Positions 10,916-18,728 of a stretch of DNA of 38,578 nucleotides are shown piece by piece. The position numbers and the translations under genes were made by a program. The DNA comes from Acidimicrobiia bacterium (GTDB lineage Bacteria; Actinomycetota; Acidimicrobiia; IMCC26256; DASPTH01): contig JBBDHW010000053.1 of the NCBI GenBank assembly GCA_040880805.1, forward strand, positions 20,151 through 58,728. Reading direction: 5' to 3'. The notes under the pieces are model-generated. The model was given only the letters and a program-made list of their open reading frames with translations, was not told where the DNA came from and did no database searches. The stretch's first letter is position 1, and every line of letters begins with the position of its first letter.

Positions 10916-10976
10916 TCCGCGTGTCGTAGCCTGCGAGTGCGGATCAGCGCTTCGAGAGCGGGTGAGGAGGCGCACG

Positions 10977-11570
10977 GTGAACTGTCAGCGATGCGGAAGC
11001 GCGATGAGCGCCGACGCGCGGTTCTGCCCGTCGTGCGGTGCCGCGGCACCGGAGACCGCGCCTGGCGCCACCGCGCCTTTGGCACCGCCGCCGCCCCCAC
11101 TGCTGCCGCTGCCGCCGCCCCCGCCGGGCATGAGCGCGCCGCCCCCGCCATCTCCACCGCCATCTCCACCCCCGGTGGTGCAGAGCTACCCGCCGCCGGC
11201 CTACGGGTATGTCCAGCCGACCAAGACCAACGGCATGGCGATCGCGTCCATGGTGCTCGGGATCCTCTGGATCTATTGGATCGGCTCGATCCTCGCGTTG
11301 ATCTTCGGGTACATCGCAAAGAGCCAGATCGACCAGTCAGGAGGCACGCAGACCGGTCGCGGGATGGCGATCGCCGGCATCGTGCTCGGTTGGGTCGGCG
11401 TCGGCCTCCTCGTCATTGTGATCGTCGTGGCGGCCGCACGGCGAACTGAGGCAGATCGCGCGCGGTCGAGGGCTATCCCTCGATGCCCTCACCGAGGTAG
11501 AGGAACCCGTATCCCTCGTCGCGGAAGGGGATGCCCGCGTCGCGCAACACCATGTCCCAGTCGCCCGTGA
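10977..11570 (+). CDS. Zinc-ribbon, proline-rich DUF4190 membrane protein
   Basis: A 197-residue protein with an N-terminal zinc ribbon (C3, C6, C17, C20 in CQRCGSAMSADARFCPSC) and a proline tract at about residues 37-75. Two membrane segments of the DUF4190 type follow (AIASMVLGILWIYWIG and GMAIAGIVLGWVGVGLLVIV). DUF4190 proteins are common in actinobacteria and have no known biochemical function. The GTG at 10977 follows GAGGAGG. The last 40 or so residues are Arg/Pro-rich, do not look like the family, and overlap the 3' end of the convergent phosphodiesterase gene by 98 bases. In another frame a TGA occurs at 11447-11449, where the protein would be expected to end, so an indel near 11430 or simple loss of the stop is possible. 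Confidence 0.75.
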   Translation: MNCQRCGSAMSADARFCPSCGAAAPETAPGATAPLAPPPPPLLPLPPPPPGMSAPPPPSPPPSPPPVVQSYPPPAYGYVQPTKTNGMAIASMVLGILWIYWIGSILALIFGYIAKSQIDQSGGTQTGRGMAIAGIVLGWVGVGLLVIVIVVAAARRTEADRARSRAIPRCPHRGRGTRIPRRGRGCPRRATPCPSRP

Positions 11571-12984
11571 CGCCAGGGTCGGTCTGTTGCATCCCGTGGT
11601 CGGCCACGAGCACGAACGCGGTGTCGTCGAATACGCCGGCGCGCTCCACGGCAGTGAGCACGTCACCGACCCGGGCGTCGGTGTCGCGCACGGATGCCTC
11701 GGCGATCTCCGAGTGCGGCCCGCCCGCGTGGAACGCGGAGTCGGTGAGCGTGAAGTTGCACCACATGAAACGCGGCGCCGGGTACGTGACGCCGCGGTAC
11801 TCGCCGTTCCAGATGGCAACGGCCTGCTCCGTGCACAGGTGGTCGACGACGCTCGACCACGAGTAGTCCTTCGACGGGCGCACGAAGCGCTCGCTGACGT
11901 GCGGGAGGCCGTCGGGCGTCGCCGGCATCGGAGGAACGTCGCCGTCACGGAAGAAATCGAACGTGGAGTAGTCAGCGTCGATGTCGCACGGCTCGTTGAC
12001 CGACGCGGTGCACGCGTCGGGCCACGTGCGATGGATCGCGTGGTGGAGCGACTCCACACCGTCGACGAGGTGTTGCATCGACCACGGCCATGTTGCCTGC
12101 GAATTGGTGATCACCTGCTCGCGCCGTTCGCGATCCCACCACGCGTTGTGGAGGATGCCGTGGTGCCCGGGGTAGCGGCCGGTGAGGATCGACGTGTGGT
12201 TCGCCAGCGTGACCGTCGGCATACAGGAAACCGCGCCCCACTCGTAGGCGGTGCCCATCGCGATGAGGCGGGCGATGTTCGGCGCCGCGCCCGAGGCTGC
12301 CAGCGCGTACAACACGTTCGGGTTCGCACCGTCGAGCAGGAAACCGACCATGTGACGCGGTGGTTCGCTCGTCTCGTCGATCACGTCGGTGCGCACCTCG
12401 CCGTCTTGACCCGCGAGGTACGTATGGTCGGAACGCGGCGTGACTCCGAGCAGCTCGGCGATCGTCGGCGCGACGTCGACGAGGCGCGCGACTCGCGGCA
12501 CCATTCCGTCGTTGCGGACCCCCTTCCCCGCGATCACGAACGGCGCCCGCGCCTGCACCACGCCGAGCGACCCATGCTCGCCGCGGTGCCCACCCTGGTC
12601 CTCCCAGTTGTGCGCAGCCGAGTGGACGACGCAGAGGTCGGGTGACGCGGGGTGGTCGAAGAGCTGAGCGGTCTGCTCGAACGCGAACGGATAGGAGTTG
12701 TCACGCCGGTCGGGGTGCGGATCGGTGAGCTCGGCCTCGAGGCCGGCGAGATGGGAGGGCGACTGGTCGGCGAAGGGATCGTGGCCCTCGGTCTCGATGG
12801 TCTCGAAGCCCCCTGCGGTGCGCCGGAAGGTGACTCGACCGTCGGCGCTCGCGGCCTCGAACGTGTCGTTGCCGGCTTGCCGTTCTGGCACGGAGCCGGT
12901 CCGCTGCAGCACCAGGTCGACGATCGGCGAGAGCTCCGAGCCGAGCAGCACGGCGAGCGCCTTTTCCCGAACTGCCTCGGCCAC
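11473..12984 (-). CDS. Phosphodiesterase/alkaline-phosphatase-fold protein, apparently permuted
   Basis: A 503-residue member of the type I phosphodiesterase/nucleotide pyrophosphatase superfamily. The classical two-zinc site can be read at D218 (FLLDGANPN), nucleophile T259 (PTVTLANHTSILTG), D415 and H419 (LTDSAFHAGG), and D462/H463 (LVADHGMQ). The seventh ligand, a histidine normally downstream in a G-x-H-G segment, is missing after residue 463. Instead it appears upstream as H137 in GGHRGEHGSLG, followed by RAPFVIAGKG and VDVAPTIAELLG, blocks that in relatives close the C-terminus. The order of the fold therefore appears rotated. No signal peptide is seen, so it is probably cytosolic. Substrate unknown. 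The gene ends against the convergent DUF4190 gene. Confidence 0.85.
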   Translation of the reverse strand: MAEAVREKALAVLLGSELSPIVDLVLQRTGSVPERQAGNDTFEAASADGRVTFRRTAGGFETIETEGHDPFADQSPSHLAGLEAELTDPHPDRRDNSYPFAFEQTAQLFDHPASPDLCVVHSAAHNWEDQGGHRGEHGSLGVVQARAPFVIAGKGVRNDGMVPRVARLVDVAPTIAELLGVTPRSDHTYLAGQDGEVRTDVIDETSEPPRHMVGFLLDGANPNVLYALAASGAAPNIARLIAMGTAYEWGAVSCMPTVTLANHTSILTGRYPGHHGILHNAWWDRERREQVITNSQATWPWSMQHLVDGVESLHHAIHRTWPDACTASVNEPCDIDADYSTFDFFRDGDVPPMPATPDGLPHVSERFVRPSKDYSWSSVVDHLCTEQAVAIWNGEYRGVTYPAPRFMWCNFTLTDSAFHAGGPHSEIAEASVRDTDARVGDVLTAVERAGVFDDTAFVLVADHGMQQTDPGVTGDWDMVLRDAGIPFRDEGYGFLYLGEGIEG

Positions 12985-15329: not shown

Positions 15330-18300
15330 ATGTGCGGCATCGTCGGCGTCGTGAGGCGCCGCGCCCGGCGCACGCCCCCCGATCCCGCGGTGCTCGCCCG
15401 GGAGCTCGCCGGTGGTCGTGAGGCCCTCGAATCGAACGCCCGGATCGTGGACCGGCTCGCCGCCGCCGCCACCGTCGTCGAAGCCGTCGACGCGGTGCTC
15501 CGTGGTGCTCCGGGGGTCGTCGCCTTGCTGGGCGCGCCGGCGATCGCGGCTCAGCTCGGGGATCAGCTCGCCGAGATGTGGCAGCGCCTCGACGCCATCG
15601 AGGAAGACCTCGACCTCAGCGGCGCGGCCGCGATGGACGCAGCCGAGATCGAGCTAGTCAACTCGGCACTGATCCGCGCGCGCGACGCCGTGTGGGCCGT
15701 CCGGCAGGAGCGTCTTCCGATGGCCGCCGCGATCGCCGAGTTCGACCCGCCGTCGCCGTCGGCCGTCGACGCCTACCTCTCGATCCAGGTTGCGCTCTCG
15801 TCGCTCGATCGACTCGAGGTGCGTGGGCGCGATTCTGCGGGCCTGCACGTGCTCGTGCGCGGGCATGCACTCGATCTCGACGACGGAGACGTGCGCGACC
15901 TGATCGACGCCCGCACGCGCGATCCCCTCTTCAGCTCCCGCTCGATCCGTGTCACCCCACACTGTCTGTCGTTCGTCTACAAGGCCGCCGCGGAGATCGG
16001 CGAGCTCGGCGACAACACCGCCGTGCTGCGCGCCGCCATCCAGAGCGACGAGTTGCTCAGGCGCGCGGTGACTACCGACACCGCCGAAGTAGTCGTGCTC
16101 GGTCACACTCGCTGGGCGAGCGTCGGGAGCATCTCCGAGGCGAACGCGCACCCGCTGAACCACGAGGAGTTGCACCAAGCGGGCGCGCCCTATGTGATCG
16201 GTGTGCTCAACGGCGACGTCGACAACTTCGCCAACCTCACCGCGATCGAGGGCCTCGAGTTCGCGCCGGAGATCACTACTGATGCAAAGGTCATCCCCGC
16301 GCTGATCTCGCGGCGAATCGCGGCCGGCGTTGCGCCCCACGAAGCGTTCCGCGCGACCGTCGCCGCGCTGGAGGGATCGCTCGCGATCGGCGCGCAGCTC
16401 GACGCGGTTCCCGAGGAGCTGTTCCTCTCGCTGCGGGGGAGTGGTCAGGCGCTCTACGTGGGGCTCGCCGAGGACGCCTTCGTCGTCGCGAGTGAGCCGT
16501 ACGGCCTCGTCGAAGAGACGCCCGCCTACGTGCGGATGGACGGCGAGACCCCGGCCGATCCCAACCACCCGTCGGCCACGCGCGGCCAGGTGGTGGTGCT
16601 CGACACCGAGCACGCCGGCACGATCGACGGCATCCGGCGGATCGCGTTCGACGGCACGCTCCTCCCGGTCACCAGCGACGAGGTGAAGCACGCGGAGATC
16701 ACCACGCGCGACATCGACCGTGGCGAGTTCACACACTTCCTGTTGAAGGAGTTGTCGGAGTCGCCGTCGTCGTTCCGCAAGACGTTGCGGGGACGGATCG
16801 TCGAACACGAGGGCGGTCGGCTGAGTGTGACACTCGGCCCCGAAACCCTGTCGCAGGATCTCCGAGACCGCCTGCGCGCAGGGGGGATCCGCCGGGTCGT
16901 GGCGATCGGTCAAGGCACCGCGGCCATCGCCGCCCAGGGTGTGGCGGCCACGCTCTCGACCCTCGTGGGCTCGCACCTGCGCGCGGAGGCGATGGCCGCC
17001 ACCGAGTTCTCGGGTTTCGACCTCATCGACGACATGTCCGACACGCTCGTCATCGCGATCAGCCAGAGCGGTACGACCACCGACACGAACCGCACGGTCG
17101 ACCTCGCGCGCGCGCGCGACGCGGTCGTCGTCGCGATCGTGAACCGGCGGAACAGCGACCTCGTCGACAAGGCCGACGGCGTGCTCTACACGTCCGACGG
17201 GCGCGATCTCGAGATGGCGGTTCCGTCGACGAAGGCGTTCTACGCGCAGATCGCCGCGGGCTACCTGCTCGCGCTCGCGCTGGCCGCCGAGCTCGGTGAT
17301 CTCGACGTTGCCCGGCAGCACGAGCTCTTGTCCGAGCTGCGGCTGCTCCCCGACGCGATGCAAGAGGTGCTCGCGCAGCGCGAGGCGATCGCCGGCATCG
17401 CGCTTCGCCACGTTCCGTCACGCCGGTACTGGACCGTCGTCGGCAACGGTCTCAACCGGATCGCCGCCAACGAGTTGCGGATCAAGCTCTCGGAGTTGTG
17501 CTATCGGTCGATCTCGTCCGACATCGCCGAAGACAAGAAGCACATCGACCTCTGCACCGAGCCGCTCATCCTCGTCTGCGCGGTTGGGCTCCGCGGATCC
17601 AACGTCGACGATGTCGCGAAGGAGGTCGCGTACCACCGGGCGCACCGCGCCGCGCCCATCGTGATCACCACCCGTGGCGAAGACCGCTTCTCGAGCGCGG
17701 CCGAGACCATCGAGGTCCCGCCGGTGCACCCCGATCTGGGATTCGTGCTCTCGGCGATGGCGGGGCACCTCTTCGGCTACGAGGCCGCACTCGTCATCGA
17801 CGCGTCGGCGCGCCCGCTCCGCGAGGCTCGCGCCATGATCCAGGAAGCTGCGATCGCCGGTGATTTCACGTCTCTCGCTCGTGATCTCGTCGCGCCCGCC
17901 GGCGTGTTCCTCGACGGCCTGCGCGCCTGTTTCTACGACGGCAACCTCACCGCCGGCACCGCGGTCCGGCTCGCGTCGCTGCTCCGCTACGCAACCGGCA
18001 TCATGCCGCTCGATCTCTACGAGGTCGACCACGGCAAGGTCGGCACGCCGGTCGTCGTCGCCGACGATCTCACCGCGGCGCTCACCGACGGGATCGAGGA
18101 GCTCACCCGCACGATCGACACGATCAAGCATCAGGCGAAGACGGTCACCGTCGGCATCTCGCGCGCCGACGAGGAGCTCCTGCAGGTGCCGCTCGTCCGT
18201 GAAGTGCTCGCCGCGGGAACGGCTCGCGACGCGCTGAGCTACCGCGCGCTGCGCACACTCGTCGCACTCGACCCCGCAGTCGAGCGGGTCACCGCGTGGA

Positions 18301-18728
18301 CCCGCTACCGCGTCGAGGGCGACCTCGCGGGCGACGCGGCAACCATTCACGTGATCGACAGCACTGCCGGCTTCCCGTCGCTCACCGCGACCGACGCCAC
18401 GCTGCGAGGCACGAAGCACCGAGTGGCAACCCAGCGCGAGGTCACGGTCGCGCGTGGACGCGACGGGCGCACCCTCGTCTTCGTGCCCGAGATCAAGGGC
18501 AACGAGACGGTGGGTATGACTCTGCTGCACGCCGATTTCGCACCGACGGTCCCGCCCGATGTCGCGCGCGGCGTGCTCCAGGGCTACCAGGGTCGTTACG
18601 GCGCGTTGAAGGACGCCGTCACCGAGACCGTGCCGGAGTTCGACGATGCCGTGCTCGGCGAGTTCGACCTCTTCGAGCTGCTGACCGAGCCGGTGTACGT
18701 GATGGCCCGTCGCTGGCCCCGCACGTGA
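15330..18728 (+). CDS. glmS: Expanded GlmS-like glutamine amidotransferase/SIS protein
   Basis: Likely makes glucosamine-6-phosphate from fructose-6-phosphate and glutamine, but at 1132 residues it is nearly twice the usual 600-620. C2 (MCGIVGVV) is the class II amidotransferase nucleophile. A helical insert of about 140 residues (13-155) then separates it from RGRDSAG (165-171). GHTRWASVGS (from 258) and NGDVDN (from 294) continue the domain. SIS-1 has ISQSGTTTDT (577-586) and STKAF (633-637). The usual GELKHGP is replaced by EDKKHID (734-740). Where the terminal DQPRNLAKSVTVE normally ends the protein there is ARPLREARA. A similar QAKTVTVG with K937 comes 100 residues later, then about 190 residues of unknown function. 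ATG start; the stop overlaps acpS. glmM lies immediately upstream. Confidence 0.85.
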   Translation: MCGIVGVVRRRARRTPPDPAVLARELAGGREALESNARIVDRLAAAATVVEAVDAVLRGAPGVVALLGAPAIAAQLGDQLAEMWQRLDAIEEDLDLSGAAAMDAAEIELVNSALIRARDAVWAVRQERLPMAAAIAEFDPPSPSAVDAYLSIQVALSSLDRLEVRGRDSAGLHVLVRGHALDLDDGDVRDLIDARTRDPLFSSRSIRVTPHCLSFVYKAAAEIGELGDNTAVLRAAIQSDELLRRAVTTDTAEVVVLGHTRWASVGSISEANAHPLNHEELHQAGAPYVIGVLNGDVDNFANLTAIEGLEFAPEITTDAKVIPALISRRIAAGVAPHEAFRATVAALEGSLAIGAQLDAVPEELFLSLRGSGQALYVGLAEDAFVVASEPYGLVEETPAYVRMDGETPADPNHPSATRGQVVVLDTEHAGTIDGIRRIAFDGTLLPVTSDEVKHAEITTRDIDRGEFTHFLLKELSESPSSFRKTLRGRIVEHEGGRLSVTLGPETLSQDLRDRLRAGGIRRVVAIGQGTAAIAAQGVAATLSTLVGSHLRAEAMAATEFSGFDLIDDMSDTLVIAISQSGTTTDTNRTVDLARARDAVVVAIVNRRNSDLVDKADGVLYTSDGRDLEMAVPSTKAFYAQIAAGYLLALALAAELGDLDVARQHELLSELRLLPDAMQEVLAQREAIAGIALRHVPSRRYWTVVGNGLNRIAANELRIKLSELCYRSISSDIAEDKKHIDLCTEPLILVCAVGLRGSNVDDVAKEVAYHRAHRAAPIVITTRGEDRFSSAAETIEVPPVHPDLGFVLSAMAGHLFGYEAALVIDASARPLREARAMIQEAAIAGDFTSLARDLVAPAGVFLDGLRACFYDGNLTAGTAVRLASLLRYATGIMPLDLYEVDHGKVGTPVVVADDLTAALTDGIEELTRTIDTIKHQAKTVTVGISRADEELLQVPLVREVLAAGTARDALSYRALRTLVALDPAVERVTAWTRYRVEGDLAGDAATIHVIDSTAGFPSLTATDATLRGTKHRVATQREVTVARGRDGRTLVFVPEIKGNETVGMTLLHADFAPTVPPDVARGVLQGYQGRYGALKDAVTETVPEFDDAVLGEFDLFELLTEPVYVMARRWPRT

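Follow-up and report, generated by a model that had tools for sequence, protein, structure and literature searches.

A probable natural circular permutation of an NPP-like hydrolase of the alkaline phosphatase superfamily, conserved in Actinomycetota

Enzyme evolution and promiscuity are commonly studied in the alkaline phosphatase superfamily, a standard model system. In the active sites of this superfamily a threonine attacks the phosphorus, two metals held on Asp and His ligands provide activation and an Asn binds the phosphate, and in PafA-type alkaline phosphatases a Lys and an Arg specific to monoesters lie beside the phosphate. In the nucleotide pyrophosphatases/phosphodiesterases (NPPs; PF01663), such as Xanthomonas NPP (2gsn/7n1s) and human ENPP1/3, a catalytic half is followed by a last third that contributes the final metal-binding His. 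A search covering 5.39 million open-access papers gave no natural circular permutation in this superfamily. The nearest precedent is provided by the SGNH hydrolases AlgX/AlgJ and PatB1, which are circularly permuted such that the last His block has moved before the nucleophile block (PMC9487903), but their fold and chemistry are unrelated to those of the protein described here.

This protein is encoded in the window, by which we mean the entire stretch of 38,578 nucleotides from an Acidimicrobiia bacterium that was analysed (contig JBBDHW010000053.1, positions 20,151 to 58,728). Its gene (11473..12984, on the reverse strand, as are all features of the gene given below) is an open reading frame of 503 residues that begins with GTG, delimited by the ORF itself, the PF01663 match, homologue alignment and profile-profile comparison (hhalign). 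At a probability of about 90%, we consider the product a complete member of the alkaline phosphatase superfamily, a two-metal hydrolase of the phosphodiesterase/pyrophosphatase-like type that has been circularly permuted in nature. It is probably cytoplasmic, and no obvious signal peptide was found in the 503 residues. The catalytic front part of the fold, or A half, makes up residues 206-503 (11476..12369), and the counterpart of the C-terminal part of canonical enzymes, or B half, precedes it at residues 1-205 (12370..12984). Homologue alignment and hhalign delimit a linker of about 30 residues between the old C-terminus and the old N-terminus (residues 181-212; 12349..12444). Compared with the NPPs, the catalytic half is alike (131 bits, Z 17.7 over 244 residues) and the site residues are held in common, the phosphate-binding Asn included, but identity is about 20% and the third of the chain that carries the last His comes after the catalytic half in NPPs and before it in the window protein. 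Closer in architecture are canonical-order actinobacterial proteins annotated as 'alkaline phosphatase family' (L044, L037, L072 and L074): both halves and the tail hairpin align with them, over 436 columns after rotation, but they retain the order A-B and their PSITPAATA lacks the NH of the PTVTLANHT found in the window family.

Membership in the NPP family is supported by a PF01663 score of 131.4 bits, above the curated cut-off of 23, although the match spans residues 213-483 and only positions 2-239 of the 342 in the model. All six metal ligands and the Thr nucleophile predicted for this family are present and invariant in the 16 sequences compared (the window protein and 15 homologues): D218 (12331..12333), D415 (11740..11742), H419 (11728..11730), D462 and H463 (11596..11601) as ligands in the A half, T259 (12208..12210) as the nucleophile, its PTVTLANH aligning with PSLTFPNH of Xanthomonas NPP, and H137 (CAT, 12574..12576) as the displaced last ligand, aligned with the His of GTRGSHGYD in Xanthomonas NPP. 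N280 (12145..12147), the predicted phosphate-binding Asn from the alignment to Xanthomonas NPP, is likewise invariant and in sequence order. An earlier note, made from the DNA alone, had placed six of the seven NPP ligands in family order at residues 218-463; the order holds for D218, T259, D415, H419, D462 and H463, but T259 is the predicted nucleophile rather than a ligand. The linear order of the family, with the last His ligand C-terminal, is not kept, as H137 lies ahead of D218. As that note had also observed, the translation has no His in its last 40 residues and the displaced blocks, GEHGSLG (135-141, with H137), RAPFVIAGKG (146-155) and VDVAPTIAELLG (169-180), all stand before the catalytic domain.

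The structure predicted by AlphaFold from the 16 sequences is one compact fold (mean pLDDT 85.5, pTM 0.90). Foldseek and VIA-align 2, which follow sequence order, place model residues 209-503 on residues 45-296 of Xanthomonas NPP (Z 17.7, 244 residues, 3.0 Å), with sequential TM-scores of 0.36/0.46, and find no counterpart for residues 1-205 or for the NPP tail. When residues 1-205 are folded alone the hairpin region is kept, but residues 123-205 fall to a pLDDT of about 30-45, compared with 53-97 in the full chain (above 90 from residue 151). Since this segment collapses when modelled without the A half, the models indicate that the H137 segment is dependent on the catalytic half for folding. 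The N-terminal half alone gave no Foldseek match below E 0.3, in keeping with the poor quality of its model, and the viral fold library gave none under E 0.001. It is thus proposed that the A and B halves fold as one unit, in which H137 from the N-terminal half would complete the predicted metal site of D218, D415, H419, D462 and H463, with T259 acting as the putative nucleophile and N280 placed on the phosphate. One might imagine instead that activity resides in a domain-swapped dimer, with the A half of one chain completed by the B half of another, since such exchange can occur in tandem homologous chains and in permuted ones. However, the single-chain prediction is already compact at its pTM of 0.90 and about 30 residues of linker suffice for closure within one chain, so that we regard a swapped dimer as improbable.

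Could the N-terminal half instead be the leftover of an upstream duplicated copy, in a degenerate gene whose catalytic half has lost its own tail? Duplicated forms do occur in the phylum, as the B-A-B-A proteins discussed below illustrate, but the window protein has only one catalytic block, and the other PF01663 genes of the same genome reside on different contigs. Nor is there space for a missing half, because only 95 bp separate the gene from the start of rplM upstream and its 3' end is overlapped by a convergent ORF, in line with what the earlier note had said of the flanking sequence. This ORF (10962-11570, forward strand) encodes a zinc-ribbon, proline-rich membrane protein and, if read to its stop, covers the final 98 bp of the permuted gene. 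The 15 homologues, which come from Actinomycetota bins, mostly of Acidimicrobiia, are 45-71% identical to the window protein and have the B-A order throughout, with all site residues and N280 invariant; the survey of homologues that the note had called for thus returned the same order in every case. A full-length copy is present in 44 of 198 genomes from a class-wide draw, mostly in the window's own bacterial order, and three other families of the phylum have additional copies with 41-51% identity. Purifying selection acts on both halves, the dN/dS values being 0.09-0.40 in A and B alike for the six pairs in which they could be computed. The leftover scenario fails on this selection on both halves, and with the B-A order kept in homologues and class genomes and with invariant site residues we consider it very unlikely indeed. 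Since the swap is inherited across a whole bacterial gene family, it represents a natural rearrangement rather than a broken gene.

The genomic setting is also conserved. The rplM-rpsI pair lies upstream and is transcribed away from the permuted gene in 13 of 16 homologous loci, adjoining it in 11 and lying 2-3 kb off in two (L009 and L013), and truA-rplQ is found on the other side of the gene in nine loci, as it is in the window. The context offers no clue to the substrate, the gene standing alone opposite a ribosomal operon. No match to anti-phage families was obtained, and a plasmid search returned only distant and partial relatives. At one locus (L019:4914-6450) the homologue is broken by a frameshift into frames of 209 and 405 residues, perhaps through an assembly or sequencing error, with a pseudogene as the alternative. 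Elsewhere in the window (15330-18728, forward strand) an ORF for a GlmS-like glucosamine-fructose-6-phosphate aminotransferase extends to 1132 residues, far above the usual length of 600 or so, with an insert near its N-terminus.

A circular permutation predicts that the N-terminal part aligns with the C-terminal part of canonical relatives and vice versa, and that rotation yields one alignment, and this is the pattern found. In a phmmer comparison with PDB sequences, residues 230-325 and 405-472 fall on positions 23-121 and 161-228 of the Xanthomonas NPP chain, whereas residues 129-182 fall on positions 316-369, with GHRGEHGSL over GTRGSHGYD; a profile of the 16 sequences places the same swapped pieces as the single sequence does. 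Matched directly against Xanthomonas NPP the tail piece scores weakly (0-1 bit), and the link leans on the canonical actinobacterial family as a bridge. From the same phylum, relatives in canonical order and about 500 residues long were gathered, and profiles of 37 permuted and 14 canonical sequences were compared with hhalign. In native order the C-terminal half aligns with template positions 42-321 (score 175, E 1.9e-22) and the N-terminal half with positions 389-529 (E 2.7e-12). Cutting the profile before residues 185-203, within the linker, produces a single alignment of 436 columns with a score of 265 (E 1.2e-34) as against 175 unrotated, while cuts outside the linker score worse. As the earlier note had anticipated, placing residues 1-205 after residue 503 restores the family order. 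Rotation of single sequences against HMMs is informative for two homologues (L026 and L030), which gain 24 to 26 bits and become one full-length domain, but the scan is flat for the window protein; summed across the 14 canonical sequences, the optimum lies at residues 184-193. The rotated window sequence gains only 1.6 bits against Pfam, and the rotated profile gives no stronger match to the Xanthomonas NPP tail among PDB sequences (-2.3 bits). That the N-terminal half is an unrelated domain resembling an NPP tail by chance, as the roughly 1 bit for the tail alone against Xanthomonas NPP might suggest, can practically be dismissed, because the crossed profile comparison gives such low E values, in the right register on the canonical-family tail and continuously once rotated. 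The circular permutation that the note had proposed is thus supported by the rotated profile alignment, by the B-A order and selection seen in homologues and, indirectly, by the compact predicted fold.

Where the new ends lie is apparent from a side-by-side comparison. The canonical chain runs RSALLYL, helix, GVDVAAW, hairpin, YPDAL helix, GDVVLSA, SDHGSL. The window protein ends at its C-terminus with GYGFLYLGEGIEG and starts at its N-terminus with the helix EKALAVLLGSELSP, followed by IVDLVL, a hairpin, the YPFAF helix, PDLCVVHSA and GEHGSL, such that the new ends fall between a strand and the following helix. The B half accordingly reads helix, strand, hairpin, YP helix, PDLCVVHSA strand, H137 loop, QARAPFVIAG and LVDVAPTIAELLG. 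In the circular permutation that we favour, the chain would have been opened after GFLYLGE, the final strand of the catalytic half, and before the helix that comes next in canonical relatives (EKALAVLL...IVDLVL), and the linker of some 30 residues, in which the QDG at 193-195 is invariant in the 16 sequences, would tie the old C-terminus to the old N-terminus.

How such a chain arose may be reflected in other proteins of the phylum. Under the permutation-by-duplication model, functional tandem repeats are expected as intermediates (PMC3320104), and the permuted gene may have originated when a canonical gene was duplicated in tandem and in frame and the two outer halves were then lost. Four apparently secreted proteins of 1181-1389 residues (L053-L056) are arranged B-A-B-A, followed by an Ig-like stretch. 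Like the permuted family they begin with B and end with A (first B, E 2e-20 to 3e-26; last A, E 3e-31 to 2e-37 against the permuted profile), but unlike the window protein they have an extra A and B in between, the Ig-like stretch, and apparent export. Their inner A matches the permuted profile at E 1e-10 to 2e-13 and their inner B weakly. The metal ligands seem to be kept in each of their active sites. This architecture, as read from the sequences, would fit the duplication model, but the four proteins may also have arisen by a later fusion of two permuted units or by insertion of a canonical domain into the linker of one such unit. Extensions ahead of canonical domains in three further proteins (L070, L071 and L075) were considered as B-A-B intermediates and contain no B half.

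A second permuted group (L036, L038, L040, L043, L046 and L048-L051) comprises proteins of 560-720 residues, often several per genome, with an N-terminal membrane or signal segment and the His block ahead of the nucleophile block. Because the hairpin is absent and the helix after the last strand sits at the C-terminus, the chain ends of this group come later in the fold. In the trees built for A and for B, every group stays separate, one versus several origins is left undecided (p-AU 0.12-0.43), and the B-A-B-A form is placed neither before nor after the permuted one. Tentatively, and with the balance somewhat against it, one may imagine that the fold was permuted at least twice in Actinomycetota, at two end sites (that of the window type and that of the membrane-anchored type of L036, L040, L043, L046 and L050), with the secreted L053-L056 as living intermediates.

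By analogy with its relatives, the window protein would employ the Thr, two-metal and Asn chemistry of the superfamily. Diesters or pyrophosphates are the more likely substrates than monoesters, since the nearest solved relatives are NPPs, with PafA not far behind as a structural match (Z 15.3 versus 17.7 for Xanthomonas NPP). Metal binding, activity and diester preference, like the duplication origin, are thus what we infer for the permuted protein. A conserved permuted family would show that the split metal site can accommodate new termini at the point where the final strand of the catalytic half gives way to the following helix. Annotation with order-dependent profiles reads such a permuted protein as a partial match. 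Together, the window family, the B-A-B-A proteins and the second permuted group would form a natural series on how permutations arise, one that lets activity be tested at each permutation step.
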